44,739 nucleotides of DNA, from assembly GCA_016278515.1 (NCBI GenBank), contig JADQBR010000037.1:1-44739 (forward strand). Direction: 5' to 3'. The notes below the pieces were generated by a model that was not told the DNA's origin, ran no database searches, and saw nothing but the letters and a program-made list of their open reading frames with translations. A program made the position numbers and the translations under genes. This document shows positions 1,132 to 19,501 of this stretch, one piece after another. Every line of letters begins with the position of its first letter. Position 1 is the stretch's first letter. The stretch is from Bacillota bacterium. Lineage in GTDB: Bacteria > Bacillota > JADQBR01.

Positions 1132-2853
1132 ATGCGATTATTTCCTAGTAAGTATCTACGTGCAAAAGACATTATGGTTGCACCTGTTAAGTCTGTTAAG
1201 GAAACGGTAAAGTTATGTGATTTAGATAAGGAAGAATGTGCAGGATTTGTTGTTGTGGATAATGGTGGGTTTGTGGGAGTTGTATCGGTATCAGATTTAT
1301 ATGTTGCCTCTGACGAAGACTTAGTTGGCGATATAATGAAAAGAAAATTTATTCGCGTGAAGGAAACAACATTGGTTTCGGAACTAGTTGAAATGACTTT
1401 AAACGATGGTGCACTAGATTATTTCCTGGTAGACGGTGATAGTGGTCAGGGCTTAGTTGATAATAATATGCTCATAAAATATATGTGGGAAAATACTCTG
1501 GAGGCAGAGTCTAAGTTAGATGCTGTGTTAAACACGGTACACGAAGCAGTTACCATTATAAATGAGCAGGAAGAGGTTGTGGGGTGGAGTCCCCAGGCTG
1601 AGGTGTTATATGACTTAAAGATACAAGATGTTTTGGGCAAAAAGATTGAAACATTCTTTCAGAACATAATTGTTCCACGCGCCAAGAACGAAGATTTAAA
1701 GTTCAAGGATTTATACCATCAGTCATGTGGAGATACGCATGTTCTTATAAACGCAGAACCGATTAAAATTGGCAAAAAAATTATTGGCGGGGTGTCGTCA
1801 GAGCGTGACATAACTGAAATTTATTATTTGCATCAAGAACTTTCTAAAACGGATTTGCAGCTACGGAAATTAGAAAGGGAATTCGGCAATCAAAACCGGA
1901 ATGACAAGGATCCTTTTTTTAAAATTGTTGGTCATAGCAGTAAATTAAGTGAGGCACGTTTAATGGCTAAACGGGTGGCGCAAACTACGGCTTCTATACT
2001 AATTCGAGGTGAGAGCGGAACTGGGAAAGAATTGTTCGCGGAAGCAATCCATAAGGCAGGTCCTCGAGAAGATAAACCTTTTATAATTGTAAATTGTGGC
2101 GCTATACCTTCATCATTATTCGAAAGCGAGTTATTTGGTTATTGTGGTGGTTCATTTACTGGGGCCGATAAAGGTGGTCGTGCGGGAAAGTTCGAGGTAG
2201 CAAATAAGGGAGCCATATTCCTTGATGAAATAGGGGAACTGCATTTGGATATGCAGGTTAAGTTACTTCGGGTTCTTCAAAATAAAGCATTTTATCGAGT
2301 CGGGGGACATGAGCCAATTGAGGTGGATGTGCATGTTATATCTGCAACAAATCGTAATCTTGAAACTATGGTTGCAGAAGGAAAGTTTAGGGAGGATCTT
2401 TATTATCGCTTAAATGTTGTTAGTTTAGATATTCCACCCTTAAGAAGCAGAAAGGATGACATACCGGAATTAATAAATATATTTATGAACGAGTTTTGCC
2501 GGAAATATAACAGAGATAATTTAAAGCTGCACCCTGAGGTGGTGGAACTGTTAATCAGCTATTCATGGCCCGGTAATGTTAGACAGCTCCGTAACGTAAT
2601 AGAACGCATGGTGATCTTGACGGAAGAAGGAACAGTTTATAAGAAACACTTGCCCCAAGAAATTCAGAAATCTGGAGTATCGCAGTTCGTAGACTCCGGC
2701 TCTATTCTTAATCAAGAAACAAAAAGAACTGAGGAAGAGCTCATTTTAAGAGCACTGGAAGAGTGCGGAGGAAATAAATCAAAAGCTGCGAAGAAACTAG
2801 GGATTCCTCGCAGCACTCTATATTACAAACTAAAAGATTTGAATAAAACTTAG
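1132..2853 (+). CDS. sigma-54-dependent transcriptional activator (CBS-PAS-AAA+-Fis HTH), PrdR-like
   Basis: This 573-residue enhancer-binding protein activates RNA polymerase carrying sigma-54. Domains in order are a CBS pair (about 1-115, AKDIMVAPV and GDIMKRKFIRV), a PAS domain (about 125-235), an AAA+ core with Walker A GESGTGKE (about 292), and a Fis-type HTH (about 531-571, NKSKAAKKLGIPRSTLYYKL). The sigma-54 contact loop reads GSFTGA instead of GAFTGA (about 339). ATG 1132 was chosen because it follows AGGAGG; an upstream TTG at 1075 would add 19 residues. The CBS-PAS-AAA layout resembles the proline reductase regulator PrdR (recalled, not searched). It is convergent with a proline dehydrogenase whose promoter looks sigma-54 dependent, so that gene and the ferredoxin-AOR operon are the likely targets. 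CBS domains suggest a nucleotide signal. Confidence 0.9.
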   Translation: MRLFPSKYLRAKDIMVAPVKSVKETVKLCDLDKEECAGFVVVDNGGFVGVVSVSDLYVASDEDLVGDIMKRKFIRVKETTLVSELVEMTLNDGALDYFLVDGDSGQGLVDNNMLIKYMWENTLEAESKLDAVLNTVHEAVTIINEQEEVVGWSPQAEVLYDLKIQDVLGKKIETFFQNIIVPRAKNEDLKFKDLYHQSCGDTHVLINAEPIKIGKKIIGGVSSERDITEIYYLHQELSKTDLQLRKLEREFGNQNRNDKDPFFKIVGHSSKLSEARLMAKRVAQTTASILIRGESGTGKELFAEAIHKAGPREDKPFIIVNCGAIPSSLFESELFGYCGGSFTGADKGGRAGKFEVANKGAIFLDEIGELHLDMQVKLLRVLQNKAFYRVGGHEPIEVDVHVISATNRNLETMVAEGKFREDLYYRLNVVSLDIPPLRSRKDDIPELINIFMNEFCRKYNRDNLKLHPEVVELLISYSWPGNVRQLRNVIERMVILTEEGTVYKKHLPQEIQKSGVSQFVDSGSILNQETKRTEEELILRALEECGGNKSKAAKKLGIPRSTLYYKLKDLNKT

Positions 2854-2869: not shown

Positions 2870-3796
2870 TTAGTGTTTAAACATATTTTTCATAATAAAC
2901 ATTATGTTTGCTGGTCTTTCAGCTAGTCTTCGGGAAAAGTAAGGGTACCAATCCTTACCATAAGGGACATAAATTCTAACCTTATATCCTTCCTGTGCAA
3001 GCTGCTCTTGTAATCCTTGGCATATGCCATAAAGCATTTGAAATTCGTACTGTGTCTTGGGGATGTTATTCTTCTTAACAAAATCCTTAGTAAAATTAAT
3101 AATGTTTTCATCATGACTAGCTACTGCCGTGTAGTTGCCCTCTTTTAGATGAATACCTATAATTCGCTTTAAATTTTCGTCTACATCCTGTTTTTGGGGG
3201 TAGGCGACTTCTTTCGGTTCTTTGTAAGCGCCTTTTACAAAACGATAGTTTGGTTTTAAGTACGCTAGCCTTTTCATATCTTCTAAAGTGCGATAAAGAT
3301 AAGATTGTAACGCTAAGCCAACGTTATCTGGGTATTTTTCTTTTAGGTATTTAAAGATTTCAATAGTTGCATCTATTCGAGGTGAATCCTCTATATCTAT
3401 TCTGACAAAGTTGTTTTTCTCCGAAGCTCTTTGGACTATCTGTTCTACATTCTCTTTGCAAAACTCTTGGTCTATATCCAATCCCATTTGGGTCAGTTTC
3501 AAAGAAGCATTACAATCGACACCAGTTCGCTCAATGGCATCTATGAGATATAAGCATTCCTGAGAGGCCCCAGCAGCTAGTTTTTTGCTCGGGACACTTT
3601 CGCCCAAATGATCTAATGTAGCAGAAATCCCTTTAGAATTTAAGGTTTTGACTGCTTCAATGGCCGTCTCTAAGGTTTCCCCGGCAACAAACCTACCGGC
3701 ACCTAAAGACAACCCGTATTTTGTGGCGAAACTATGAACTACTGTATTATTTGAGACTCCTAACACTACTGATCTGGCTAAGTTGTTTAATTCCAT
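2870..3796 (-). CDS. proline dehydrogenase (monofunctional PRODH)
   Basis: FAD-dependent oxidation of L-proline to pyrroline-5-carboxylate. The 308-residue length fits the stand-alone Gram-positive enzyme. Family landmarks are ATLDHLGESV near residue 60, the barrel strand FVKGAYKEPKEVAYP, ASHDENII, YEFQMLYGI and the C-terminal flavin/substrate segment YVPYGKDWYPYFSRRLAER, with the paired arginines that bind the proline carboxylate. ATG at 3796 is preferred because GGGGG lies eight bases upstream; ATG 3802 is too close to it. A -24/-12 sigma-54 element lies about 45 bases upstream. It is divergent from the ferredoxin-AOR operon and tail-to-tail with the sigma-54 activator (16 bp apart). No P5C dehydrogenase is fused or adjacent. 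Confidence 0.93.
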   Translation of the reverse strand: MELNNLARSVVLGVSNNTVVHSFATKYGLSLGAGRFVAGETLETAIEAVKTLNSKGISATLDHLGESVPSKKLAAGASQECLYLIDAIERTGVDCNASLKLTQMGLDIDQEFCKENVEQIVQRASEKNNFVRIDIEDSPRIDATIEIFKYLKEKYPDNVGLALQSYLYRTLEDMKRLAYLKPNYRFVKGAYKEPKEVAYPQKQDVDENLKRIIGIHLKEGNYTAVASHDENIINFTKDFVKKNNIPKTQYEFQMLYGICQGLQEQLAQEGYKVRIYVPYGKDWYPYFSRRLAERPANIMFIMKNMFKH

Positions 3797-3840
3797 TTGC
3801 ATTACCCCCGCAAGTTATGTTCGTATGTGCAACAATATAA

Positions 3841-3857
3841 TGCAAATTATTAGCCAA
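3841..3857 (-). promoter_or_regulatory. sigma-54 promoter of proline dehydrogenase
   Basis: On the minus strand the sequence reads TTGGCTAATAATTTGCA. GG (-24) and GC (-12) are separated by exactly ten bases, and TTGG and TTTGCA match the consensus. The predicted start near 3830 leaves a leader of about 34 bases. Support comes from the sigma-54 activator gene next door. Found by eye. Confidence 0.7.
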
Positions 3858-3905
3858 CCGCCAGGAATTGTAGCGATGAACCAGCCAGGAACGTCAAAAT
3901 GGGCA

Positions 3906-3961
3906 CAAATATTTGATAAGAGGTACTAATTAAATTAGTTCATATGGCAAGATTGTACAAT
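3906..3961. promoter_or_regulatory. cluster of three palindromes, candidate upstream activator sites
   Basis: Three perfect palindromes are packed here: CAAATATTTG (3906-3915), ACTAATTAAATTAGT (3925-3939) and ATTGTACAAT (3952-3961). They lie between the two divergent sigma-54 elements, about 50-105 bp from one and 95-150 bp from the other, the distance expected for an enhancer-binding protein. They are AT-rich, so some could be chance. The rest of the 3803-4168 gap holds no convincing gene. Confidence 0.35.
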
Positions 3962-4054
3962 AATAGTGGCGAAAAGCAGACACTATATGTTTAAAAAACT
4001 GACAATATAATTGGAGAAAAAGATCTAAAGGAAGGCAAAGAAGGGCTTGGGAGA

Positions 4055-4072
4055 TTGGTATAGATATTGCAA
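4055..4072 (+). promoter_or_regulatory. sigma-54 promoter of the ferredoxin-AOR operon
   Basis: TTGGTATAGATATTGCAA has GG at 4057-4058 and GC at 4069-4070 with the exact ten-base spacing, TTGG at -24 and TTGCAA at -12. The -24 block departs from consensus after GG (TAT for CAC). The predicted start near 4082 gives a leader of about 87 bases. Confidence 0.6.
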
Positions 4073-4168
4073 ATAAATTAGTAAGTGAAGAAGACGCTAT
4101 ATGGATTAACGCAGGGCAGATAGGCTAGGAAATGGCTCCTGCTATTACAAGAGAAAGAGGTGATTATT

Positions 4169-4555
4169 TTGAAAATCGTTGCAAAAAAACCAGAACTCTG
4201 TGATGGTTGCGGAATCTGTGAAGAAACTTGCGCGCAGGCTTGGTTTAAGGAAAAGGATAAAGAAAAGTCTGCTATAAGGATAATGGATAATCCTAACGGT
4301 GATTTTAATATTGTTGTCTGTGACCATTGTGGTGAATGTGTTGATGTTTGCCCGGTGGAGGCGATTAAAACAGCCAAAAGCGGTATTGTGACAATCAAGG
4401 ATAGCGATTGTGTGGAGTGCTACTCCTGCGTAGGATTTTGCCCTAAGGGAGCTATGTTCAAGCATCCTGAAGAGCCGGTGCCTTTTAAGTGTACGTCTTG
4501 TGGCAAATGCGTGAAAGAATGTCCGACTGGTGCAATTTATATGGAGGAAGTTTAA
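4169..4555 (+). CDS. polyferredoxin, four [4Fe-4S] motifs, AOR-associated
   Basis: A 128-residue electron carrier, probably the redox partner of the AOR that follows. It has four CX2CX2CX3C motifs: CDGCGICEETC, CDHCGECVDVC, CVECYSCVGFC and CTSCGKCVKEC. The last three are followed by P, as in bacterial ferredoxins; the first lacks the proline. The start is taken as TTG 4169, six bases after AGAGGTG; GTG 4160 lies inside that site. Stop and next start are 34 bp apart, with AAAGGAGG before the AOR gene. Such small Fe-S subunits beside AOR genes are known from other AOR operons. It would be made under sigma-54 control if the promoter at 4055 is real. Confidence 0.88.
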   Translation: MKIVAKKPELCDGCGICEETCAQAWFKEKDKEKSAIRIMDNPNGDFNIVVCDHCGECVDVCPVEAIKTAKSGIVTIKDSDCVECYSCVGFCPKGAMFKHPEEPVPFKCTSCGKCVKECPTGAIYMEEV

Positions 4556-4589
4556 GTAATAGTGCTTCAAACACAAAGGAGGTAAGACA

Positions 4590-6728
4590 ATGAGTGAAGA
4601 TCAAGCTCGGAAGGTGATTCAAACCTTTAAATATGAACCAAAACGATTGGAAAGAGGGTATTCAGACCGTACTCTCTATGTTAATTTATCTGACAACACA
4701 GTAAAAGCAAAAACTATCTCGGAAGAGACAAAAGACGTTTTTATCGGAGGCCGAGGCTATGGATTGTATTATCTATGGCAAGCGGTAACTGGAGTTACTA
4801 AGTGGAATGACCCGGAAAATGAAATTATCATATCCTGCGGACCCATTGCCGGGATTACTCAATATCCCGGGACCGGTAAATCTATTGTTGTTACTTTATC
4901 TCCGACCACGGGAACCGTAATAGACAGTAATGTTGGCGGCTATTTTGGGCCATTTATGAAGTTTTCAGGCTGGGATGCTTTAGAAGTTCAGGGCAAAGCC
5001 GAGCGTGACGTTGTAGTTTACATTGACGGGGATAAGGGTGTTGTTACAATTGAAGAAGTACCTCTTGGTGATCTAAATACTCATGTATTAGCCGAAAGAT
5101 TGACAGATTATTATTCTGAATCGGAAAATGATAAAAAGAATATCTCGGTTGTTTCAACCGGTACTGGTGCAGACAATTCCTTAATGGGAATGCTGAATTT
5201 TTCTTTCTATGACAGAAAACGAAAGGCCGTGCGTATTAAACAAGCTGGTAGAGGCGGTATTGGATCTGTTTTTAGGGATAAAAACATAGCGGCTTTTGTA
5301 ATCAAGTTTAGTAACGTCAATGGAGACTTAAACAATCCTGCTGATAAGAAACGGATTAATGATACGGGTATCAAAATGCATAAGGAAGTCGCTTCCATGG
5401 ATCCCAAGCAAAATAATATGCGTAAGCGTGGAACAACCATGTTGACCCCTATTGCTAACGATAATGATTTACTACCTGTTTGCAATTTTAAATTCGGCAC
5501 CCATCCAGATGCTGTTAAGATAACAAAATGGGAAGATAAGTTTTGTCATACCGGTAGTGACGGATGCTGGTACGGTTGTACAGTAGGATGTGCCAAGGTG
5601 GTTTTCGGTTTTGAGCTCAGGACAGGTCCTTATAAAGGACAAAAGGTGCTTGTGGATGGACCTGAGTACGAAACTATAGGTGCAGTTGGGTCTAATGTAG
5701 GGGTTTTTGACCGAGACCATATCTTAGAATGCAACTTCTATTGTGATACTTATGGCATAGATACTATTTCTTTTGGAACAGGCGCAGCGTTCATCATGGA
5801 ATGCTATGAAAACGGCATCCTTAATAAGGATATTACAGGTGGCCTGGAATTGAACTTTGGCAACCGTGAAGCAGTTATGGAATTGCTGCATCAGATTGCC
5901 GGCGGTGAAGGTTTTGGTAAAATTGCCGGTCAAGGAATCCGGAAGATGAAGAAAATATTTGTTGAACAATACGGAGCAAATTCTCGGTTCTTAGAAGATA
6001 TTGGCATGGAGGCAAAAGGTCTGGAATACTCAGAGTACATTTCAAAAGAATCTTTAGCTCAACAGGCCGGATACGGGATGGCCAACAAAGGTGCTCAGCA
6101 TGATGAGGCCTGGCTGATTTTTATGGATACGGTATTGAAGCAAATACCCACTTTTGAAGACAAAGCAGAAGCGCTGCATTTTTTCCCGATGTTTAGGACT
6201 TGGTTTGGGTTAGTTGGTCTATGTAAATTACCTTGGAACGATGTCGTTCCTGCTAATAATGCGGATACTGATGAGCCACAGAAAGTTCCTGAGCATGTAG
6301 AGAATTATTTAAACTTATATAATGGCGTGACAGGGAAAGAAGCTACAATTGACGATATTCTTTTTGAATCAGAGGCTGTATACAATTTCCAAAGAGTATT
6401 CAACTTAAAAATGGGTGTGGGTAAAAGAGAACACGACTCTATTCCGTATCGTTCTGTAGGGCCGGTCACTGTAGAGGAATATGAATCTAGGCAAGAGCGT
6501 TATGATGACCAGCTTAAAGATCTCATCGGCGTTGATCCCAGCGGTAAGTCTACGGAAGAAAAGATAAAAGTGGTCAGAGAGTATCGGGAGAAGCAGTACG
6601 AGATTTTAGTTGATACGGTTTATAAGCGTCGAGGATGGACTGATCAGGGTATCCCTACGCTGGATACTCTAAAAAGGCTGCGGGTAGACTTTCCAGACGT
6701 CGTGGGGCTAGTCAAAAAACACCTATAG
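4590..6728 (+). CDS. tungsten-type aldehyde ferredoxin oxidoreductase family protein
   Basis: The AOR family oxidises aldehydes to acids with ferredoxin as acceptor, using a bis-pterin tungsten cofactor and one [4Fe-4S] cluster. At 712 residues it exceeds the usual about 600, partly through an N-terminal extension of about 25 residues before RTLYVNLSD. Visible landmarks are FIGGRGYGLYYLW, NVGGYFGPFMKFSGWDALEVQG, AGRGGIGSVFRDKNIAA, the cluster motif C326-WYG-C330-TVG-C334 and the distal C545 (LCKLPWND). The first cysteine spacing is CX3C, where classical AORs have CX2C. The substrate cannot be read from sequence. Its position opposite proline dehydrogenase, with no aldehyde dehydrogenase nearby, makes glutamate semialdehyde an attractive but unproven candidate. 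Confidence 0.9.
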   Translation: MSEDQARKVIQTFKYEPKRLERGYSDRTLYVNLSDNTVKAKTISEETKDVFIGGRGYGLYYLWQAVTGVTKWNDPENEIIISCGPIAGITQYPGTGKSIVVTLSPTTGTVIDSNVGGYFGPFMKFSGWDALEVQGKAERDVVVYIDGDKGVVTIEEVPLGDLNTHVLAERLTDYYSESENDKKNISVVSTGTGADNSLMGMLNFSFYDRKRKAVRIKQAGRGGIGSVFRDKNIAAFVIKFSNVNGDLNNPADKKRINDTGIKMHKEVASMDPKQNNMRKRGTTMLTPIANDNDLLPVCNFKFGTHPDAVKITKWEDKFCHTGSDGCWYGCTVGCAKVVFGFELRTGPYKGQKVLVDGPEYETIGAVGSNVGVFDRDHILECNFYCDTYGIDTISFGTGAAFIMECYENGILNKDITGGLELNFGNREAVMELLHQIAGGEGFGKIAGQGIRKMKKIFVEQYGANSRFLEDIGMEAKGLEYSEYISKESLAQQAGYGMANKGAQHDEAWLIFMDTVLKQIPTFEDKAEALHFFPMFRTWFGLVGLCKLPWNDVVPANNADTDEPQKVPEHVENYLNLYNGVTGKEATIDDILFESEAVYNFQRVFNLKMGVGKREHDSIPYRSVGPVTVEEYESRQERYDDQLKDLIGVDPSGKSTEEKIKVVREYREKQYEILVDTVYKRRGWTDQGIPTLDTLKRLRVDFPDVVGLVKKHL

Positions 6729-6757: not shown

Positions 6758-6994
6758 ATGTTAATTACATTGAGACCAATTGGTCATCTAAAAGAGTTAT
6801 TCCCGGCCAACCAGGAAAAATATGAACTGGAGCTTTCGGGAACGTGGACCATTAGAAATATTGTCACGAAGAGTTTTGATGTTGATCCTGACAGCATCAG
6901 TGGGATAGTGGTTGAAGGAAAACATCGAAAATGGGACTATGAACCTAAAAGTGGCGATGAGATATTATTAATCCCTCCGTTAGGAGGGGGCTAG
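6758..6994 (+). CDS. MoaD/ThiS-like sulfur carrier protein
   Basis: A 78-residue ubiquitin-fold protein ending in LGGG, the flexible di-glycine tail that is thiocarboxylated to give sulfur for molybdopterin/tungstopterin dithiolene formation. ILLIPPLGGG is the typical MoaD C-terminus. It follows the AOR gene by 29 bp with AGGTGAT in front, so it is in the same operon and probably serves that cofactor. MoaD-like genes beside AOR genes are common. Confidence 0.87.
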   Translation: MLITLRPIGHLKELFPANQEKYELELSGTWTIRNIVTKSFDVDPDSISGIVVEGKHRKWDYEPKSGDEILLIPPLGGG

Positions 6995-7060: not shown

Positions 7061-7257
7061 CACTCGCGGACATAAGTCCAACGTATTAACAATATTCGTG
7101 CTATAAGGCAGGACAATATAACTTTATAACGAATAGTTTTCATCACTCTAAAAGTAAGAACTTTTCTAAAAGTCATAAATAATAGTTTGAATACTTAGCA
7201 TATTGGGAAAATGTGGATAGGCCTAGGTGAAAGATTTTGTTCGGATTTAAGAGGCCT

Positions 7258-7272
7258 TATGGTCAGACCATA
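7258..7272. promoter_or_regulatory. FCD-GntR operator ahead of the hydroxyproline block A
   Basis: TATGGTCAGACCATA is a perfect palindrome around one central base and matches the TnGTnnnACnA pattern of FadR/FCD-type GntR regulators. It lies 50 bp before the OCD-family start codon. A related site sits before the gntR gene at 14259, so the encoded regulator is the obvious candidate ligand. Confidence 0.7.
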
Positions 7273-7321
7273 TGCTTACAGCACATTAAACAATAGCACA
7301 AAAGCAAAGGAGGCTAATTTT

Positions 7322-8290
7322 ATGTTATGTCTATCGCAACATGATATTTTAGAAGCAGTATCATTGAACGAGGTTATGGATGTTATTGAAACTGCATTAA
7401 AACTTGACCAAACAGGCCAGATTTTTATGCCCCCGCGCTCTCATATTGAGCATGGGAATGGAACTTTATTGCTTATGCCATGTTTTACTAAACAAAGTTT
7501 TGGGACAAAGTTAGTAACTGTCTTCCCGGAAAACGCGTCAAAGAATGCGCCTGCGGTTACTGGGGTTGTGGTGCTCAATGATGCGGAAACAGGGGTGCCT
7601 ACTGCACTTATAGACGGTAGAATATTAACGGCTATTAGAACTGGTGCTGTTGGAGGGGTCAGCGTTCGACACTTGGCTAGTAATACCGCCAAAACATTAG
7701 GAGTTGTCGGTGCCGGGCTGCAGGGCTATTATCAAGCTCTCTGTGCGATGACTGCAAGAAATATCAAGGATTTATATATTTATGATTTGTTTGAAAAAAA
7801 TCTTACTGTTTTTTCGGAGAAAGTAGCCGAGGAATTCCCAGAAGTGAAGGTACATAAAGCGGCAAGTTCCGAAGCACTGCTGGAAGCCTCAGACATTGTT
7901 ATTACTACCACTACCGCAAAAAAACCGGTGCTTCCTAACAATAAGGATTTGTTTGCGGGCAAACACTTTGTAGGGGTCGGCTCCTTTCAACCTCATGTTC
8001 AAGAGTATCCTAAAGCGGTATTTGATGCGTGTGAACAGGTTTTTATTGATACGGAACATGCCTTGGAGGAAACGGGGGATCTCATAATACCTCTCAAAGA
8101 GGGATGGTTAAGTAGAGACCAGATTGTTACCATGGGAAGCCTTCTTGAAAATGGCGTAGATACAACTGAACTTAAAAAGAAGACAACTTTCTTTAAATCT
8201 GTAGGAATGGCAGCATTTGATTTACTTGCTTCTCAGCTGGTTTATGAAAAAGCAAAAGAAAAAGGGTTGGGCTATGAATTTAAAATGTAG
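7322..8290 (+). CDS. ornithine cyclodeaminase/mu-crystallin family; likely pyrroline-2-carboxylate reductase
   Basis: A 322-residue NAD(P)-dependent enzyme, normal length for the family. Seen: substrate half FMPPRSHIEHGNGTLLLMPCF, GTKLVTVFPEN, LIDGRILTAIRTGAVGG, then the Rossmann motif GVVGAGLQGYYQAL, and DIVITTTTAKKPVLP. The family includes ornithine cyclodeaminases, alanine dehydrogenases and pyrroline-2-carboxylate reductases. Its place directly before a trans-3-hydroxyproline dehydratase-like gene, whose product would be pyrroline-2-carboxylate, favours the reductase role, giving L-proline. ATG 7322 follows AAAGGAGG; the frame stays open upstream to 7211, but that part runs across the operator and lacks a binding site. 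First gene of block A. Confidence 0.87.
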   Translation: MLCLSQHDILEAVSLNEVMDVIETALKLDQTGQIFMPPRSHIEHGNGTLLLMPCFTKQSFGTKLVTVFPENASKNAPAVTGVVVLNDAETGVPTALIDGRILTAIRTGAVGGVSVRHLASNTAKTLGVVGAGLQGYYQALCAMTARNIKDLYIYDLFEKNLTVFSEKVAEEFPEVKVHKAASSEALLEASDIVITTTTAKKPVLPNNKDLFAGKHFVGVGSFQPHVQEYPKAVFDACEQVFIDTEHALEETGDLIIPLKEGWLSRDQIVTMGSLLENGVDTTELKKKTTFFKSVGMAAFDLLASQLVYEKAKEKGLGYEFKM

Positions 8291-8310
8291 ATGGGGAGGA
8301 ATAGTATTAA

Positions 8311-9333
8311 ATGCTTCAATTTAAGAGGGTTATTAGTACCATAGATGCCCACGCCGAGGGAGAGCCATTAAGAATAGTCACTTCCGGCCTACCTCCTATC
8401 GTAGGTAGCACAATTCTTGAAAAACGCCGATATATCAAAGAAAATTATGATCATTTAAGAAAACTGCTAATGCTAGAACCCAGAGGGCATAGCGGAATGT
8501 ACGGTTGTATTATTACACCTCCTACTACGGAAGACGGGGATTTTGGAGTCTTATTTATGCATAACGAAGGATACAGCACTATGTGTGGACATGGAATCAT
8601 CGGTGTAACCAAGGTTGCTGTAGAGACTGGCATGATTGAGGCAAATGACGGTGAAAATATTGTGAGAATTGATTCGCCGGCCGGGCGCGTAACAGCATGT
8701 GCCCATGTAGAAGACCAAAAAGTGAAAAAGGTCAGCTTTGAAAACGTACCCTCTTTTGTTTACGCAGAAGATGCGAAAATTAATGTAGATGGTATTGGCG
8801 AAGTGGAAGTTGACATCGCTTTTGGCGGCGCGTTTTATGTTTTTGTGGATGCATCTAAGCTTGGCTTAAAAGTCGTACCGGAACAGATGCAGCGGTTGGT
8901 GGATGTCGGAATGGAAATCAAGCATAAGGTAATGGATGCTATGGAAGTAGTTCATCCGGAAGAAAGCGAGCTGCAAGGAATATACGGGACCATAATCACC
9001 GAGGCTGTTGAAATGGCAGCAGGAAAATTAGTTTCTAAAAATGTAACGATTTTTGCAGACGCTCAGATTGATCGGTCCCCCACGGGAACTGGAACTTCAG
9101 CCAGGGTTGCTTTGCTTTATAGAAAGGGATTATTAAAGCCAGGAATGAGGCTGATAAACAAAAGTATTATTGACACAGTGTTTGAAGGTTGGTTTGAAAA
9201 AACTTCTATGATAGGGAAGATTAGCGGTGTGGTGCCAATGGTGAGCGGGACTGCACATATAATGGGTTGGAACCAATTAGTGCTGGAAGAAGACGACCCG
9301 TTGCCGGAAGGATTTCGTATTACCGGTGGTTAG
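8311..9333 (+). CDS. proline racemase family, Cys/Thr type: trans-3-hydroxy-L-proline dehydratase
   Basis: The 340-residue protein has the proline racemase fold: IDAHAEGEPLRIV at the N-terminus, catalytic Cys92 in MCGHGI, and DRSPTGTGTSA where the second catalytic position (258) is Thr instead of Cys. In this family Cys/Cys pairs mark racemases and 4-hydroxyproline 2-epimerases, whereas Cys/Thr marks trans-3-hydroxy-L-proline dehydratase, which yields pyrroline-2-carboxylate. The gene follows the OCD-family reductase by 20 bp with GGGGAGG in front, a pairing seen in known hydroxyproline pathways. A second family member with Cys/Cys lies at 15062, so the two have probably divided the chemistry. 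Confidence 0.88.
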   Translation: MLQFKRVISTIDAHAEGEPLRIVTSGLPPIVGSTILEKRRYIKENYDHLRKLLMLEPRGHSGMYGCIITPPTTEDGDFGVLFMHNEGYSTMCGHGIIGVTKVAVETGMIEANDGENIVRIDSPAGRVTACAHVEDQKVKKVSFENVPSFVYAEDAKINVDGIGEVEVDIAFGGAFYVFVDASKLGLKVVPEQMQRLVDVGMEIKHKVMDAMEVVHPEESELQGIYGTIITEAVEMAAGKLVSKNVTIFADAQIDRSPTGTGTSARVALLYRKGLLKPGMRLINKSIIDTVFEGWFEKTSMIGKISGVVPMVSGTAHIMGWNQLVLEEDDPLPEGFRITGG

Positions 9334-9421
9334 AAAGACATTAATAGTCTCTTAAGGAGGTGATAGTCAAAGATAAGTCGTCGACGCTAGCAAAAACATG
9401 TAAATTCGAGGAGGTCGTAAA

Positions 9422-10609
9422 GTGAAAAAAGTATTTCTATTAGCTTTAGTTATTGGTTTAATGTCTCTTGCGGTATTTGGCTGTGGGAATCAACCACCTG
9501 CTTCAGATGATCAGCAGTCAGGTGAAAATGATCAAGCCGAGGAACAAACTGGTGAACAGGCAAGTTTTGATGGTGAGTTAAAAATAGGTATCATGGTTCC
9601 GACCACGGGGTCTGAAGCTACTTATGGAAAAGATATGGAAAACGCAATACAAATAGCTGTTGATGAAATTAATGCCGAAGGTGGTATTCTCGGTAAGAAG
9701 GTTGTAACTACAACCGGTGACGCAGCATGTGATCCACAGATGGCAACTGCTGCTGCAAGTAAGCTTGTTTCCTCTGACGTTACTGCTGTGGTAGGTGGTT
9801 ACTGCTCGGGAGCTACATTGCCGACTTTAAGCATCTATGGCGATGCTAATGTTCCTTTGGTAATTCCCGCGGCTAACTCAACTAAGCTGATTCCTAATAA
9901 CCCTGGGAATGCTTTCATGATTAACGGTACAGGTGCTCACCAGGCCCAGAAGGCTACGGCGTTATTCGAAAGATTAGGCGCTGAAAAAATAGCCATCGTA
10001 CATCAAGGAGACGGCTATTCTGAGGATTTAGCCAAGATAACTAATGACGTCTGGGAAGAAGATGGTCATGAAGTTGTTGCATTTGAAGTAGTTAACAAAG
10101 GTGAGCAAGATTTTTCCTCACTTGTAACAAACGTTAGATCAAAAAGCCCAGATTTGTTATATTGGACTGCCTACTATGCTGATGGTGGAATGCTAATCAA
10201 GCAGCTTCGTCAAGGTGGGTATGAAGGTGAAATTGTAGTTGGTGACGGTTCCAATTCACCAAAATTAATGGAAATTGCCGGGAATGCGGCTGAAGGCGTA
10301 TATGTTACTTCTAACCCGTTAGTAGAGTATCTACCGGCAGCAAAGAAATTCATGGAAGATTATAAGGCCCGTTTCAACAATGATCCCGGTCCGTATTCAG
10401 CTTTATCCTATGATGGCTTGTATCTGCTAGCTGATGCTATTGAAAGAGCCGGATCCACAGATAAAGAAGCAATTATTAAGGCTTTGGCAGAAACTGAAGG
10501 CCTTGAAGGTTTAGCAGGAAAGGTATCCTTTACTGAAGATAATGTTCTTGCTGAGAGTAACTTCGTAGTTTTACAAGCAAAAGGTGGTAGTTGGACAAAC
10601 GCTGAGTAG
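9422..10609 (+). CDS. livJ: ABC transporter substrate-binding lipoprotein (branched-chain amino acid type)
   Basis: A type I periplasmic-binding-fold protein of 395 residues that captures an amino acid and delivers it to the LivHMGF permease encoded next. It has a lipoprotein signal peptide (MKKVFLLALVIGLMSLAVFGC, cleavage before Cys21), an acidic Q/E-rich linker to about 48, then ELKIGIMVPTTGSEATYGKDMENAIQIAVDEINAEGGILGKK, the hallmark N-lobe. The start is GTG after GAGGAGGTCG. Ligands of this class include Leu/Ile/Val and many others; operon context suggests proline or hydroxyprolines. A hairpin follows the gene and may favour higher expression of the binding protein. Confidence 0.92.
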   Translation: MKKVFLLALVIGLMSLAVFGCGNQPPASDDQQSGENDQAEEQTGEQASFDGELKIGIMVPTTGSEATYGKDMENAIQIAVDEINAEGGILGKKVVTTTGDAACDPQMATAAASKLVSSDVTAVVGGYCSGATLPTLSIYGDANVPLVIPAANSTKLIPNNPGNAFMINGTGAHQAQKATALFERLGAEKIAIVHQGDGYSEDLAKITNDVWEEDGHEVVAFEVVNKGEQDFSSLVTNVRSKSPDLLYWTAYYADGGMLIKQLRQGGYEGEIVVGDGSNSPKLMEIAGNAAEGVYVTSNPLVEYLPAAKKFMEDYKARFNNDPGPYSALSYDGLYLLADAIERAGSTDKEAIIKALAETEGLEGLAGKVSFTEDNVLAESNFVVLQAKGGSWTNAE

Positions 10610-10644
10610 GCATATTGTTCAGTAAAATCAAGTTGGGATATTTG

Positions 10645-10677
10645 GGAGTTATCCTTTGATTTTAAAAGGATAACTCC
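10645..10677 (+). terminator. intercistronic hairpin between binding protein and permease genes
   Basis: GGAGTTATCCTTT and AAAGGATAACTCC form a perfect 13-bp stem with a seven-base loop. No T-run follows, so it is likely an mRNA-stabilising or partial-termination hairpin rather than a full terminator. Confidence 0.6.
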
Positions 10678-10731
10678 ACCATTTAATTAACAAGACACAA
10701 CATCATAGGTGAATGCTGAAAGGATGAGTGT

Positions 10732-11646
10732 ATGTCTACATTCGATATAATACTTCAACAATTAATTAATGGGCTGCTGATAGGCTCATTCTATAGTTTG
10801 GTTGCTCTGGGGTATTCAATGGTATACGGCATAATAATGCTATTGAACTTTGCCCATGGAGACATTTACATGGCTGGGGCTTTCGTAGCTTTTGTAATGC
10901 TGGCAGTGGTGTCTCCGGTGCTTGGAGCCGGGTGGCTGGGTATCGTCGCGGCAATGATTGCCAGTATGTTCTTGGTCGGCTTGCTGGGTGTATTTATTCA
11001 GAGGGTTGCATACCGACCCATGTTAGGTGCGCCGAGGTTATCAATTTTAATTACGGCAATAGGTGTATCACTGGTGCTTTACAATAGTGTTATGGCCATT
11101 ACTGATGGTGAATTTCAAGCTTTTACAACCGATTTAGGGTTTGCAGGAGTAGACGTTGGAAGTGTTCATATTACCTATACTCAAATTATACTAGTAGTAG
11201 CCACTGCAATTTTAATGATTTCCCTAAACTGGTTTATTTCCAAAACAATGTATGGAAAGGCAATGCGTGCGATTGCTCTAGATAAAGATGCTTGTAGACT
11301 TATGGGTATCAACGTGAACAAAATAATTGCTCTTACCTTTTTTGTCGGCTCAAGTTTAGCAGCAGCAGCAGGAACCATGGCCGGTGTTTATTACGGCAGT
11401 ATTCATTTTTTCATGGGCTTTGTGATTGGGCTAAAGGCATTTACTGCCGCGGTTATTGGCGGCATTGGTAGTATTCCAGGCGCTATGATAGGCGGTTTGG
11501 TTTTAGGTTTGCTGGAAGCGGCGGGAACTCAACTTCCTTTTATAGGTTCTGAGTGGAAAGACGTCTTTGCTTTCGGCCTTCTAATTCTTCTTTTAGTCTT
11601 TAGGCCAACCGGAATACTCGGCAAAACTGAGATTGAGAGGATGTAA
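10732..11646 (+). CDS. livH: branched-chain-type amino acid ABC permease, LivH family
   Basis: A polytopic membrane protein of 304 residues, one half of the transport channel. Seen: QQLINGLLIGSFYSLVALGYSMVYGIIMLLNFAHGDIYMAG, the LivH N-terminal signature; about eight hydrophobic segments; the cytoplasmic loop MRAIALDKDACRLMGINVNKII that meets the ATPase; and IGGIGSIPGAMIGGLVLGLLEA near the end. It is five bases from the next gene. Its partner is LivM. Confidence 0.93.
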   Translation: MSTFDIILQQLINGLLIGSFYSLVALGYSMVYGIIMLLNFAHGDIYMAGAFVAFVMLAVVSPVLGAGWLGIVAAMIASMFLVGLLGVFIQRVAYRPMLGAPRLSILITAIGVSLVLYNSVMAITDGEFQAFTTDLGFAGVDVGSVHITYTQIILVVATAILMISLNWFISKTMYGKAMRAIALDKDACRLMGINVNKIIALTFFVGSSLAAAAGTMAGVYYGSIHFFMGFVIGLKAFTAAVIGGIGSIPGAMIGGLVLGLLEAAGTQLPFIGSEWKDVFAFGLLILLLVFRPTGILGKTEIERM

Positions 11647-11651
11647 TTATT

Positions 11652-12665
11652 ATGAGCGTAGATAATCCAAGAGCTAGAGAAAAAGAGTTTCCTGATGTGG
11701 ATGGTGCTGTAAGTAAACAGACATGGGTAGATAGAGCTTATGAATTATTCGATAATAAAAAAATACGAAACAGCAGTCTGCTGGGCCTTGCTGCCGTTGT
11801 TTTATTAATACCAACTTTTGGCGGCAATTATGTGATGGAGATTTTCACCAATGCCTTCTTCTATATGGTACTATGCTTAGGGTTAAACATTGTGGTCGGA
11901 TATGCAGGCTTGCTTGATCTTGGATATGCAGCTTTCTTTGCCGTTGGTGCGTACACTACCGGAATATTGACTGCCCATTTTGGGATGAATTTCTGGTTGA
12001 CAATTCCATTTAGCGTGCTTTTCTCTGCTATGGCAGGCATTATTATTGGTGGCCCGACATTGCGGTTGCGCAGTGACTATTTAGCAATTGTAACTTTGGG
12101 TTTTGGCGAAATCACTCGGATTACCGCAAGAAATCTCGAGATAACAGGTGGGGCAAGTGGATTGATAGGTATTGACAGGCCTGAATTATTTGGCCTGCGG
12201 TTATATCAAATACAACATTTTTACTATGTCTTCTTTGTACTTGTTATTATAGCAATTTTTGTTGCCGTGCGATTACATCATTCAAGACTAGGGCGAGCAT
12301 GGCAGTATATTCGTGAGGACGAGGATGCTGCGGAAGCAATGGGTATTGACCGGGTTAAATTTAAGCTTTACGCGTATATTATTGGAGCTGTATTCGGTGG
12401 CGTCGCAGGTTCTTTCTTTGCGGTAAAAATGACAGCTATTTCGCCGCAAACATTCTTATTTACTCAGTCAGCCATGATTTTGTTGGCAGTGGTGCTTGGT
12501 GGTATGGGCAAGATTCCCGGCATGATAGTAGGTGCCTTTGTCTTGGTAATTTTCCCAGAAGTGTTTCGGGCTATTGGGGACTTGAGAATGCTTTTCTTCG
12601 GGGTAGTGTTACTAGTAATTATGTTATTCAGGCCACAAGGTATTTGGCCGGAACGGCGCAGCTAA
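11652..12665 (+). CDS. livM: branched-chain-type amino acid ABC permease, LivM family
   Basis: A 337-residue second permease subunit. A hydrophilic N-terminal tail of about 45 residues precedes about eight to ten membrane segments. LivM landmarks are LGLNIVVGYAGLLDLGYAAFFAVGAYTTGIL, LRLRSDYLAIVTLGFGEI, the ATPase-contact loop WQYIREDEDAAEAMGIDRVKFKLYAY, and GGMGKIPGMIVGAFVLV. It works with LivH in the cytoplasmic membrane. Confidence 0.93.
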   Translation: MSVDNPRAREKEFPDVDGAVSKQTWVDRAYELFDNKKIRNSSLLGLAAVVLLIPTFGGNYVMEIFTNAFFYMVLCLGLNIVVGYAGLLDLGYAAFFAVGAYTTGILTAHFGMNFWLTIPFSVLFSAMAGIIIGGPTLRLRSDYLAIVTLGFGEITRITARNLEITGGASGLIGIDRPELFGLRLYQIQHFYYVFFVLVIIAIFVAVRLHHSRLGRAWQYIREDEDAAEAMGIDRVKFKLYAYIIGAVFGGVAGSFFAVKMTAISPQTFLFTQSAMILLAVVLGGMGKIPGMIVGAFVLVIFPEVFRAIGDLRMLFFGVVLLVIMLFRPQGIWPERRS

Positions 12666-12700
12666 AATAACCAGTATCAAAAAGAAGGGGAAGAGTAATT

Positions 12701-13480
12701 ATGGCGATTTTAGAAGTAAAAAATCTCACCCTAAGATTTGGTGGGTTAACGGCGGTTAACGACCTGAGCTTTGGAGTTGACGAAGGTTCTATTACCAGCC
12801 TTATTGGACCAAATGGTGCAGGCAAAACTTCTGCCTTTAACTGTTTAACAGGGTTTTATAAAGCAAACGAAGGTGACATTGTTTTTGATGGTAAAAGTCT
12901 TATGAAAGAAAAGCCTCATAAGATTACTCAGTTAGGCATGGCGCGGACTTTTCAAAATTTAAGGTTGTTTAAGAATATGAGTGTCTTAGAAAATGTTATG
13001 GCAGGTATGCACTGTCGTGGTTCTGTCGGTGTTGTCGGTTCCATACTTCATACACCTAAACAACGTGCAGAAGAGAAGAAGATAAAGGAATATAGTGAAT
13101 ACTGCTTGGATTTTGTAGGCATATTGGACAAGAAAGAGCGCCTAGCGAGAAACTTGCCCTATGGAGACCAAAGGCGAGTTGAGTGGGCACGGGCATTGGC
13201 AACTAAGCCTAAACTGATTTTGCTGGACGAGCCAGGGGCAGGATTAAATTATGATGAAAAAGACGACCTAATCAAATTAATTCAGCGAATCCGTGAAAAA
13301 TTAGGGATTACAATTTTCTTAATTGAACACGATATGGGCTTAATTATGAAAGTATCTGAAAAGATTATTGTTATAGATTATGGGCAGAAGATTGCGGAAG
13401 GCAATGCCGAAGAAGTTCAAAATAATCCTCGAGTAATTGAAGCATATCTTGGCAAAGAAGAGGAGGATGAAGCAGTATGA
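12701..13480 (+). CDS. livG: branched-chain-type amino acid ABC ATPase, LivG family
   Basis: A 259-residue ABC ATPase. Walker A is GPNGAGKTS, the Q-loop region is ARTFQNLRLFKNMSVLENV, Walker B is LILLDEPGAGLN and the H-loop is IEHDM. The signature reads LPYGDQRR, a little off the more usual LSYGQQR. The ending IVIDYGQKIAEGNAEEVQNNPRVIEAYLG is typical LivG. Its stop overlaps the next start by four bases (ATGA), implying coupled translation with LivF. Confidence 0.93.
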   Translation: MAILEVKNLTLRFGGLTAVNDLSFGVDEGSITSLIGPNGAGKTSAFNCLTGFYKANEGDIVFDGKSLMKEKPHKITQLGMARTFQNLRLFKNMSVLENVMAGMHCRGSVGVVGSILHTPKQRAEEKKIKEYSEYCLDFVGILDKKERLARNLPYGDQRRVEWARALATKPKLILLDEPGAGLNYDEKDDLIKLIQRIREKLGITIFLIEHDMGLIMKVSEKIIVIDYGQKIAEGNAEEVQNNPRVIEAYLGKEEEDEAV

Positions 13481-14193
13481 GCGACATAGTTCTAGCACTT
13501 AAAGATGTTGAAACGTATTATGGTAAAATCCATGCCTTGCGCGGAATTAACATTGAAGTTAAGAAAGGACAGATTGTAACTCTTTTGGGTTCTAACGGAG
13601 CGGGGAAGAGCACGACACTCAAAACAATTTCTAATTTAGTTCAGGCATCCTCCGGAACCGTAGAATTTTTTGGTAAGGATATTACCAACGTTCAACCCTA
13701 TGATATAGTGGAAATGGGTTTAATCCACGTACCTGAAGGAAGAAGAATTTTCAGGGACTTAACTGTGGAGGAAAATTTGGAACTGGGGTCCTACACTCTA
13801 AAAGATGACAAGGAAAGAAAAAATAGAATGGACCACGTTTTTGAAATGTTTCCTATTCTCGAAGAACGCAAGAAACAGGATGGCGGCACTTTGTCTGGAG
13901 GGGAACAACAAATGCTTGCTATTGGAAGAGCTATGATGGTAAAGCCAAAGCTGTTGTTGTTGGATGAACCTTCAATGGGGCTGGCGCCAATTATTGTGCA
14001 GGATATTATGAAAATAATCAGGCGCCTTAATAGCGAAGGCACTACCATTTTACTGGTAGAACAAAATGCAAAAATGGCCCTTAAGTTAGCGCACTATGGT
14101 TATGTATTAGAAACTGGCAGTATTGCGATGGAAGGCGATGGGTCTCAATTAAGAGAAGACGAGACTATTATTAAAGCCTACTTAGGCTCTTAA
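13477..14193 (+). CDS. livF: branched-chain-type amino acid ABC ATPase, LivF family
   Basis: A 238-residue second ATPase. Walker A is GSNGAGKST, the signature is LSGGEQQMLAIGRAMM, Walker B is LLLLDEPSMGLAP, followed by TILLVEQNAKMAL. VPEGRRIFRDLTVEENLELG is a LivF hallmark. It closes transcription block A; I see no clear terminator before the regulator gene 122 bp further on, so some read-through is possible. Confidence 0.93.
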   Translation: MSDIVLALKDVETYYGKIHALRGINIEVKKGQIVTLLGSNGAGKSTTLKTISNLVQASSGTVEFFGKDITNVQPYDIVEMGLIHVPEGRRIFRDLTVEENLELGSYTLKDDKERKNRMDHVFEMFPILEERKKQDGGTLSGGEQQMLAIGRAMMVKPKLLLLDEPSMGLAPIIVQDIMKIIRRLNSEGTTILLVEQNAKMALKLAHYGYVLETGSIAMEGDGSQLREDETIIKAYLGS

Positions 14194-14256
14194 GCCTTAG
14201 AGTATGTCTTGGGCTGTACACTAGAGCTGTATAAGTCTGGGGCAATTTATATATTT

Positions 14257-14272
14257 GGTTGTCAGACCATAT
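14257..14272. promoter_or_regulatory. FCD-GntR operator ahead of the regulator gene (block B)
   Basis: TTGTCAGACCA (14259-14269) fits TnGTnnnACnA and shares GTCAGACCATATG with the site at 7258-7272. One arm is imperfect. It lies about 46 bp before the gntR start, fitting autoregulation of block B by its first gene. Confidence 0.65.
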
Positions 14273-14315
14273 GATGATAGCATGTCAAATTAAATGAGTT
14301 TGAGGATGCGTTATA

Positions 14316-15062
14316 ATGGAAGAAAGCTATATGGAGTTTGAAACCATAAAAAGGAATACTACTCCCCAGATGATCGTTAAACAGATAATTGCGACTTTGG
14401 AAGAAGGCAATTTAAAGCCAGGGGATAGGCTGCCCCCTGAGAGAAAGATGTGTGAAATGTTTGGTGTTGGACGGTCATCCATTAGAGAAGCCATAAAGGC
14501 TTTGGTGGTTATGGGTTATCTGGATGTCATCCAGGGAAAAGGAAGCTTCATCAGTAACAAGTTTCCTGATAGGGGACATTCTGCGAGACGCTTGGAAAAA
14601 GCGCTGGCGGAGGTATCTTTGGATGATTTGCTGGAGACGAGAGAAATTATGGAGTGCCAAGTAATAAGACTTGCAGCCCAACGTATTAAGAAAAACCAAA
14701 TCAAAAAACTAAAAAGCATTCTCGCCGTGCTGAAGAACACTGAGCAAAGGGATGCAGACGGGTTTTTCCTGGCAGATAAGGAATTTCATGATGTTATAAT
14801 TGAAGCAGCGGGTAATATTGTTATGGGTGAACTCATGCAAGTTATTAGAGGTGAACTGCACGAGTATGGTACTAAACTGGTCGTTGCGCTAAATGTAAGA
14901 GAGAAATCAATTAAATCGTGCGAGGAAATAATAACCTACTTGGAATCAGGCAAAGGTGATAAGGCAGCAGAATGGATGGTTTATCACTTGGACGTAGTTA
15001 GGGATACATTGGAAGACCTGGTTAATAAAGAAGGAGAGAGGGGAGAAGGGCTTAAAGTGTAA
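14316..15062 (+). CDS. GntR family transcriptional regulator, FadR/FCD subfamily
   Basis: A 248-residue regulator. The N-terminal winged helix (about 10-80) shows LKPGDRLPPERKMCEMFGVGRSSIREAIKALVVMGYLDVIQGKGSFI. The C-terminal FCD ligand domain has EIMECQVIRLAAQR, FHDVIIEAAGN and a final YHLDVVRDTL helix; conserved acidic and histidine positions suggest metal-assisted binding of a carboxylate. It heads block B and its last base overlaps the next ATG (TAATG). Matching operators occur before this gene and before block A, so it probably senses a hydroxyproline or proline intermediate and controls both. An ATG 15 bases downstream is an alternative start. Confidence 0.92.
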   Translation: MEESYMEFETIKRNTTPQMIVKQIIATLEEGNLKPGDRLPPERKMCEMFGVGRSSIREAIKALVVMGYLDVIQGKGSFISNKFPDRGHSARRLEKALAEVSLDDLLETREIMECQVIRLAAQRIKKNQIKKLKSILAVLKNTEQRDADGFFLADKEFHDVIIEAAGNIVMGELMQVIRGELHEYGTKLVVALNVREKSIKSCEEIITYLESGKGDKAAEWMVYHLDVVRDTLEDLVNKEGERGEGLKV

Positions 15063-16090
15063 TGCTTTTACCCAACAATAATATGCGGTTTAAACGAATG
15101 TTTACAACTGTAGATACCCATACGGCAGGGGAACCCACCAGGACGGTAATTGGTGGGATACCTTATATTCCAGGCAAAACAATTACAGATAAGATGATGT
15201 ACATGAAGGAAAAAGAGGATTGGATTCGAAGAATCCTAATGCATGAACCAAGAGGGAATGAGGTAATGTCGGGGGTTATACTTACTGAGCCCTGCACCCC
15301 GGGTGCAGACATAGGCGTCATTTTCATTGAAGTCGGCGGTTACCTGCCTATGTGCGGACATGATACTATCGGAGTAGCTACTTCCTTAATAGAAACAGGC
15401 ACTATCAAACCAGTGGAACCTTACACCAATATTGTGCTGGATACACCTGCCGGATTGGTTAATGTAAAAGTTAAAGTTGAAAATAATGTGGCCAAAGAGG
15501 TTACCTTTACCAACGTACCGGCCTTCGTGTTTGCCAAGGATGTACATTTAGAAGTTCCCGGATTAGGTACAATTATTAGTGATATCAGTTACGGGGGAAA
15601 CTTCTTTGTCATAGCGGACGGTAAGGATTTAGGGATTGATGTTACTAAAGAAATTGCACCAAAGATAGTTGAGATTGGTAAATTATTAATGGAGGCCGCT
15701 AATCAGAAAATAAAGGTTTTCCATCCGGAAAAGCCATTTATAGATTCTATTACCCATGTAGTTATTTCTGCCCCTCCTACCCATCCGGAAGCCAGTTTGA
15801 AAAATGCCGCAATAATACCACCTGGGTCTATTGACCGATCCCCATGCGGGACTGGAACCTCGGCAAAGATGGCAAGTCTGCACGCCAAGGGGCTGCTGAA
15901 TCTTGGGGAGGGATTTACCCATGAAAGCATTATCAGTACTATATTTAAATGCCGGTTGCTTGGTGAAACAAAGGTTGGAGATTTTCACGCAGTGGTCCCG
16001 GAAATAACCGGGAGTGCATATGTAACTGGAATGAACACCTTGGTGTTGGATCCCGATGATCCTCTTCAAGAAGGATTTCAATTGGGTTAG
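15062..16090 (+). CDS. proline racemase family, Cys/Cys type: 4-hydroxyproline 2-epimerase or proline racemase
   Basis: A 342-residue cofactor-independent racemase/epimerase. It has VDTHTAGEPTRTVIGGIP, catalytic Cys98 in MCGHDTIG and Cys262 in DRSPCGTGTSA, the two-base pair for proton exchange at C-alpha. The residue after MCGH is Asp, where the proline racemases and 4-hydroxyproline epimerases I recall have Asn or Gly, so substrate choice is open. The neighbouring HypD-like enzyme and the wider island favour interconversion of trans-4-L- and cis-4-D-hydroxyproline. The start overlaps the gntR stop, suggesting coupling. ATG 15083, where family alignment begins, has no binding site of its own. 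Confidence 0.87.
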   Translation: MLLPNNNMRFKRMFTTVDTHTAGEPTRTVIGGIPYIPGKTITDKMMYMKEKEDWIRRILMHEPRGNEVMSGVILTEPCTPGADIGVIFIEVGGYLPMCGHDTIGVATSLIETGTIKPVEPYTNIVLDTPAGLVNVKVKVENNVAKEVTFTNVPAFVFAKDVHLEVPGLGTIISDISYGGNFFVIADGKDLGIDVTKEIAPKIVEIGKLLMEAANQKIKVFHPEKPFIDSITHVVISAPPTHPEASLKNAAIIPPGSIDRSPCGTGTSAKMASLHAKGLLNLGEGFTHESIISTIFKCRLLGETKVGDFHAVVPEITGSAYVTGMNTLVLDPDDPLQEGFQLG

Positions 16091-16141
16091 TTTCAGTTTG
16101 TGAATGTTAGAAAACAGTGTTTATTGTTAGAAGGTGATAAT

Positions 16142-17029
16142 TTGGATCAGGGAATAATTTTTGATATTCAAAAATACTCGATACACGATGGCCCAGGGAT
16201 ACGTACAACAATCTTTTTAAAGGGTTGTCCACTAAATTGTTGGTGGTGTCATAACCCCGAGAGCCAGAGTTTTAACAAGGAAGTTCTGTTTTGGGAGGAC
16301 AGGTGTATTGGGTGCGGCGATTGTCTAAAAGCTTGTCCGACTGGCGCCATAGAAAAAGAAAGTAACAACAAATGCATTCTATGTGGAAATTGTGTCAAGG
16401 CATGCAGTACCGGAGCCAGGGAACTAGTTGGCAGAAGAGTTACGGTATCGGAAGTGATAAAAGATATTGAAAAAGATCTGATTTTTTATGATCAGTCAGG
16501 TGGGGGAGCGACATTTTCCGGTGGGGAAGCAGTTTCCCAAATAGGTTTTTTGAAGAGCCTGTTAAAAGGCTGCAGGGAAAGAGAAATTCACACCGCATTA
16601 GATACAACTGGTTTTTGTGACAGAGAATATTTATTTCAGATAGCAGACTTGGTAGATTTGTTTTTATATGACTTAAAAATTATGGATGACCATAAGCATT
16701 TAAAATACACGGGGGTATCAAATAACCGTATTCTACAGAACTTACGAGAACTGTCCTTATGCCATGACAATATTGTAATCAGAATACCCATAATCCCAGA
16801 CGTGAACGATCACGATAATGATATTGATGCCATGGGTAAATTCATTAAAAGTTTGCTCAATGTGAGAGAGGTTAATATTCTTCCTTACCATAATACGGGC
16901 ATGGATAAATATAAGAGATTAAATATAGAATATTTGCTTTCGGGAGCTACGCCTCCGTCAAAGGATAAGATGGAGCATATCAAGAAACGGTTAGAGAGGT
17001 TTGGATTGCAAGTTCAAGTAGGAGGTTAG
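16142..17029 (+). CDS. glycyl-radical enzyme activating protein (radical SAM)
   Basis: A 295-residue activase that uses S-adenosylmethionine to place the glycyl radical on the enzyme encoded next. GIIFDIQKYSIHDGPGIRTTIFLKGC leads into the radical SAM motif CPLNCWWC (CX3CX2C). An inserted ferredoxin domain has CIGCGDCLKACP and CILCGNCVKAC, typical of activases for dehydratase-type glycyl radical enzymes. GGGATFSGGEA and ALDTTGF follow. TTG 16142 is chosen because AAGGTGAT lies just upstream and the family begins near here; GTG 16100 would add 14 unconserved residues. It is five bases before the hypD-like gene, whose binding site overlaps its stop. Confidence 0.92.
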   Translation: MDQGIIFDIQKYSIHDGPGIRTTIFLKGCPLNCWWCHNPESQSFNKEVLFWEDRCIGCGDCLKACPTGAIEKESNNKCILCGNCVKACSTGARELVGRRVTVSEVIKDIEKDLIFYDQSGGGATFSGGEAVSQIGFLKSLLKGCREREIHTALDTTGFCDREYLFQIADLVDLFLYDLKIMDDHKHLKYTGVSNNRILQNLRELSLCHDNIVIRIPIIPDVNDHDNDIDAMGKFIKSLLNVREVNILPYHNTGMDKYKRLNIEYLLSGATPPSKDKMEHIKKRLERFGLQVQVGG

Positions 17030-17034
17030 AAACG

Positions 17035-19401: not shown

Positions 19402-19483
19402 ATGCTCTTAGAAAGCATAAGTATGTAACAAGTTTACCCCTTCATAGCTGGAGGGTAGATATCATGTATTAGATATTAAAGGG

Positions 19484-19501
19484 GAAACTGGCGTCAGTTT
19501 C
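19484..19501 (+). other. small intercistronic hairpin before aconitase X
   Basis: GAAACTG, loop GCGT, CAGTTTC form a perfect 7-bp stem within the 133-bp gap between the hypD-like and aconitase X genes. CCCCTT (19437-19442) and AAGGGG (19479-19484) can also pair around it. There is no T-run; possible mRNA processing or attenuation site. Confidence 0.4.

Follow-up and report, generated by a model that had tools for sequence, protein, structure and literature searches.

A candidate divergent sigma-54 control region between proline dehydrogenase and ferredoxin-aldehyde oxidoreductase genes in a Bacillota bacterium

The PRODH/Fd-AOR gap and its two -24/-12 elements

The 44,739-nucleotide stretch analyzed here, referred to as the window, corresponds to contig C92; the genome it belongs to measures 4.27 Mb and has a completeness rating of 100%. 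Within it, a gap of 366 bp (3803-4168) is flanked by a proline dehydrogenase gene (PRODH) on the minus strand and by a ferredoxin and aldehyde ferredoxin oxidoreductase (AOR) gene pair (Fd-AOR) on the plus strand. The features considered below are as follows.

1132-2853, plus strand: PrdR-like sigma-54 activator with CBS, PAS, AAA+ and Fis-type HTH domains (Pfam Sigma54_activat 5.5e-69, HTH_8, CBS, PAS)
2870-3802, minus strand: PRODH (PF01619 3.9e-36; NF045947 335 bits), predicted target of the minus promoter
3841-3857, minus strand: candidate sigma-54 -24/-12 element TTGGCTAATAATTTGCA, best matrix score in the window
3988-4004, minus strand: probable activator site (UAS) TGTCAGTTTTTTAAACA, TGT-N11-ACA, from comparison with genome G001 (TGTCAGTTTTTTGCACA)
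4055-4071, plus strand: candidate sigma-54 -24/-12 element TTGGTATAGATATTGCA, third best matrix score in the window
4169-4555, plus strand: polyferredoxin of 128 aa with several 4Fe-4S motifs (several Fer4 families), first gene of the plus operon
4590-6728, plus strand: AOR family enzyme (AFOR_N and AFOR_C)
6758-6994, plus strand: small MoaD/ThiS-like protein of 78 aa, 3' of AOR (ThiS 0.0026, below cut-off)

PRODH starts with ATG at 3802, and the likely ferredoxin start is a TTG at 4169 preceded by AGAGGTG. The polyferredoxin and AOR are paired in nearly all relatives, and the same MoaD/ThiS-like protein lies 3' of AOR in G001 and G111 (34-45% identity); its gene is shorter than a usual ORF listing takes in. 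Further along, positions 7211-21198 hold a hydroxyproline and proline catabolism cluster comprising an ornithine cyclodeaminase/pyrroline-2-carboxylate reductase family gene, two proline racemase family genes, a Liv-type ABC transporter, a GntR regulator, a trans-4-hydroxyproline dehydratase (1369 bits, over cut-off) with its activase, and two AcnX-like pieces resembling cis-3-hydroxyproline dehydratase. At the other end, positions 1-911 contain tRNA-Ala and tRNA-Asn, a likely 5S rRNA at about 720-830 (identified by eye) and near-identical repeated stretches around 330-700.

A first-pass annotation had described two sigma-54 elements with exact GG-N10-GC spacing facing away from one another in this gap, and their positions, their spacing and the gap length were all confirmed from the sequence. 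Both TTGGCTAATAATTTGCA and TTGGTATAGATATTGCA carry a TGG-N9-TGC core, TTGGTATAGATATTGCA having T instead of C after GG. TTGGCTAATAATTTGCA lies 38 bp from the PRODH start codon with an expected transcription start near 3830, and the start expected from TTGGTATAGATATTGCA is near 4082. The spacing alone proves little, and we rejected it as evidence by itself, since the window contains 78 copies of TGG-N10-GC where 68 ± 8 are expected. The stricter pattern TTGG-N8-TTGC occurs four times in the window, and two of these matches fall in the 366-bp gap. Across the genome, where our statistics are pattern counts, it occurs 303 times compared with 463 for the wrong spacings N7 and N9 combined (~231 each), leaving only about a quarter of matches above background; given this modest excess, a single match is weak evidence.

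Scoring with a matrix, as the annotation had proposed for the whole genome, favored the pair within the window, whereas genome-wide the TTGG-N8-TTGC pattern exceeded background only modestly. The 13-position consensus matrix ranked TTGGCTAATAATTTGCA first and TTGGTATAGATATTGCA third in 44.7 kb; it was hand-built on the published consensus, which makes its ranks sound and its absolute bit scores approximate. In 20,000 dinucleotide shuffles of the gap, the score of the plus element was reached 42 times, that of the minus element 134 times and both together never, in agreement with the earlier judgment that two such elements are unlikely to be accidental. A search of the gap for a sigma-70-like promoter found none, compared with 1.6 expected.

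The adjacent activator and a candidate binding site

The annotation had made its proposal depend on an rpoN gene, and one is present in the genome together with about 32 full-length sigma-54 activators with strong domain matches. The activator gene it had placed near the gap encodes a full sigma-54 activator (1132-2853; longest open frame from 1075), which lies on the far side of PRODH from the gap and reads toward PRODH. PrdR is the closest named family. The activator scores 581 bits with the NCBIfam PrdR model, below the equivalog cut-off of 795, and six of its orthologs score 588-605 bits; by these scores, we class the activator and its orthologs as a PrdR-like group and not as PrdR in the NCBIfam definition. 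No prd gene adjoins the 1132-2853 locus. PrdR responds to proline in C. difficile (PMC7438776), and sigma-54 activators mostly adjoin their targets (PMC6615313). The latter source pairs PrdR with prd genes and AorR with aor-moaD; none of its groups includes PRODH, alone or together with AOR. In excerpt, the sigma-54 list for Bacillus thuringiensis (PMC4428206) includes proline genes and does not name PRODH.

Between the two promoters, TGTCAGTTTTTTAAACA conforms to TGT-N11-ACA, a site type reported for PrdR and others (PMC6615313), such that a PrdR-type TGT-N10-12-ACA site is found upstream of a target. Relative to the expected transcription starts, its center is at about -86 (plus) and -166 (minus). 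A search of the window genome gave the 3988-4004 site itself as the only exact match, no match with one mismatch and 25 with two, although the motif was partly derived from this locus. The motif has independent support from G111 (matched by 0 of 400 shuffles) and G117 (1 of 400), where it recurs beside activator orthologs and near a sigma-54 site; matches in G035 (9 of 400) and G278 (10 of 400) offer weak support, and by the same shuffle test the motif was not significant in G084, G227, G118, G273 or G080. In G052 it overlaps a terminator-like hairpin, and the T-tract after the hairpin may be a terminator. A second TGT-N11-ACA at 3818-3834 was not counted as a site because it lies downstream of the expected minus start and, by our estimate, ~0.3 chance matches are expected per gap. 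The neighboring PrdR-like protein encoded at 1132-2853 is likely to activate both promoters.

Conservation of the PRODH promoter and of the divergent layout

We next asked how often PRODH relatives carry a comparable element. A genome contig search yielded mainly aerobic bacilli, and the genomes compared include none of the window genome's genus. Enough flanking sequence was available for 106 PRODH relatives. In 23 of them a sigma-54 site (score ≥ 15.1) lies upstream of PRODH on its strand, no more than 250 bp away, and seven have an upstream site on the opposite strand, whereas three control stretches (inside the gene on either strand, and downstream on the PRODH strand) yielded 0 sites. The comparison with orthologs that had been suggested for both elements therefore bears out the minus element. 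The sites mostly fall 30-60 bp before the PRODH start. In G001, which belongs to the same family as the window genome, the activator, PRODH and the site occur in the order seen here; G006, G052 and G278 have activator, site and PRODH, and in G048, G086 and G152 PRODH has a sigma-54 site with no activator found beside it. As a prediction from sequence, the minus promoter is well supported, and TTGGCTAATAATTTGCA is very probably a sigma-54 promoter.

The claim of a divergent pair also gained from this comparison, as pairs linked to PRODH recur with partners from the proline pathway. In ten loci, the window locus included, a site on the PRODH strand is accompanied by a second that points the other way. 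The divergent partner is a P5C dehydrogenase, normally the second enzyme in proline catabolism, in six (Paenibacillus and relatives; two checked with NCBIfam), the proline symporter PutP in two, a 130-aa gene in G001 (no Pfam match, and no homolog in the loci compared) and Fd-AOR in the window. With ten such loci, divergent wiring is a recurrent feature of proline oxidation genes, and what sets the window apart is its unusual partner. Promoters of this type are known; the pairing of PRODH with Fd-AOR looks new.

Fd-AOR and a proposed role in proline oxidation

Our main reading, to which we assign a probability of roughly 0.65, is that both elements are sigma-54 promoters under the control of the adjacent activator; the AOR substrate is not part of this claim. 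The gap would then control proline oxidation in both directions through sigma-54. The sigma-54 form of RNA polymerase would occupy both -24/-12 elements, and the PrdR-like activator, probably sensing proline or a related compound, would bind the TGT-N11-ACA site and open both promoters. The minus transcript would yield proline dehydrogenase, which converts proline to P5C, and the plus transcript would encode ferredoxin, AOR and the MoaD-like protein. AOR would in turn oxidize glutamate semialdehyde to glutamate with ferredoxin as acceptor, replacing an NAD-linked P5C dehydrogenase.

P5C, the product of PRODH, is in equilibrium with glutamate-5-semialdehyde, which is an aldehyde, and AOR enzymes take many aldehydes. 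In the genome, rated 100% complete, the sole match to the P5C dehydrogenase model TIGR01237 scores 260 of 660 bits, and this aldehyde dehydrogenase fits MMSDH instead (545 against 448.5). Because there is no P5C dehydrogenase match, AOR stands in the regulatory place of P5C dehydrogenase and AOR chemistry is suitable, we infer that Fd-AOR could oxidize glutamate semialdehyde with ferredoxin as acceptor. Since P5C dehydrogenase or PutP takes the partner position in related bacteria, ferredoxin rather than NAD may be the acceptor with which this anaerobe completes the oxidation of proline. We advance only tentatively the fuller proposal, in which a tungsten/molybdenum AOR replaces P5C dehydrogenase and produces reduced ferredoxin, with one PrdR-like activator coupling both steps through the divergent sigma-54 region. 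Searches of a literature library found no paper joining AOR with glutamate semialdehyde and proline, and for AOR with proline dehydrogenase returned only a review of the beta-grasp fold.

The gene order around related Fd-AOR pairs bears on both the substrate and the plus promoter. In G084, examined with longer flanks, all genes point the same way: an activator comes first, then a sigma-54 site, the gene for a 2Fe-2S protein, those for a SoxA-like and a SoxB-like oxidoreductase, and finally Fd-AOR. This order is kept in G118 and G035, where the AOR is distant (27-30% identity); the loci of G227 and G117 are cut by contig ends, and G111 carries an extended version. About 3 kb upstream of the ferredoxin, G273 and G080 have a more distant activator with a site after it, and in G048 and G086 an activator and AOR share one contig with no strong site between them. 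The stretch from the 2Fe-2S protein through the SoxA-like and SoxB-like enzymes to the ferredoxin is itself a conserved operon (locus L220 of G084, 2968-6322, and also L222, L223, L225 and L226), with a sigma-54 site at its head and a PrdR-like activator adjoining. The window is without the SoxA/SoxB-like oxidoreductase genes, and the site stands directly before the ferredoxin.

It is quite possible, if short of an even chance, that both promoters are real and AOR is co-regulated with PRODH yet acts on another aldehyde, for example one derived from hydroxyproline or other amino acids: relatives of Fd-AOR follow SoxB/SoxA-like amine dehydrogenase genes and not PRODH, hydroxyproline genes are also present in the window, and the range of aldehydes accepted by AOR enzymes is wide. 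Set against this are PRODH as the divergent partner here, P5C dehydrogenase or PutP in the same place elsewhere and the genome's want of a P5C dehydrogenase match.

For the plus element, conservation among orthologs gave a divided answer. The arrangement in which an activator and a sigma-54 site head an operon containing Fd-AOR is seen in G084 and, on weaker or incomplete evidence, in other relatives, but a site directly before the pair is not: 29 related Fd-AOR loci have no strong sigma-54 site within about 1 kb upstream. Fd-AOR operons headed by an activator and a site therefore support sigma-54 control of Fd-AOR, not this exact element. Also weighing against it, the plus element has the T after GG and overlaps 4024-4125, part of a coding-like stretch at 4007-4125 that is open in two frames (first IIGEKDLKEGKEGLG, followed by EIGIDIANKLVSEEDAIWINAGQIG and a stop), which is possibly a gene remnant and for which no convincing homolog was found in 299 genomes, Pfam, NCBIfam, plasmids or any of the loci. 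Together with the abundance of TTGG-N8-TTGC across the genome, these observations would fit a plus match that arose by chance in degraded coding sequence, leaving the minus promoter alone real and Fd-AOR transcribed from another, unrecognized promoter. We regard this as unlikely, given that the plus and minus sites were jointly rare in shuffles, that the plus element is on the right strand and at the right distance for the ferredoxin start, that the candidate activator site lies at a usable distance upstream of it, that G001 shares the divergent layout with a near-consensus plus site, and that the remnant peptide is without a homolog. The plus promoter is thus predicted with less certainty than the minus promoter, and TTGGTATAGATATTGCA is probably a sigma-54 promoter. 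Separately, two sigma-54 activators that resemble each other occur at locus L042 (1815-14003; G000 contig C10). Behind each lies a TTGG-N8-TTGC site and then an operon; these operons contain HpaB-like and AMP-binding genes, and another AOR lies between the two activators.

Activation of both sigma-54 promoters by another of the ~32 activators is very unlikely: PRODH does have a site with no activator beside it in G048, G086 and G152, but the activator adjoins here and in G001, G052, G006 and G278, the site motif occurs near orthologous activators, and such activators mostly adjoin their targets (PMC6615313).

If control by the adjacent activator and the proposed AOR reaction are both correct, the locus would represent a new branch of PrdR-type regulons that turns on proline oxidation rather than reduction, and a ferredoxin-linked route from P5C to glutamate would be predicted. 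Amino acid fermentation would then yield more energy, with low-potential ferredoxin reduced instead of NAD.

Three known systems resemble this arrangement in part. The PrdR/prd operon of Clostridioides difficile and relatives shares the nearest activator family, a link to proline metabolism and TGT-N10-12-ACA sites (PMC6615313, PMC7438776); however, PrdR drives proline reductase (prdABDEF, prdC), whereas the predicted targets here are proline oxidation genes, and the present activator falls short of NCBI's PrdR cut-off (581 of 795 bits). AorR/aor-moaD of Clostridium likewise places an AOR gene with moaD under sigma-54 control (PMC6615313), but as a single operon tied to alcohol formation, in contrast to the divergent arrangement with PRODH and an adjoining PrdR-like activator found here. 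Closest in layout are the divergent pairs of Paenibacillus and alkaliphilic bacilli, in which PRODH lies on one side and each gene has its own -24/-12 element, facing away; there the partner is P5C dehydrogenase or PutP, whereas here it is Fd-AOR.
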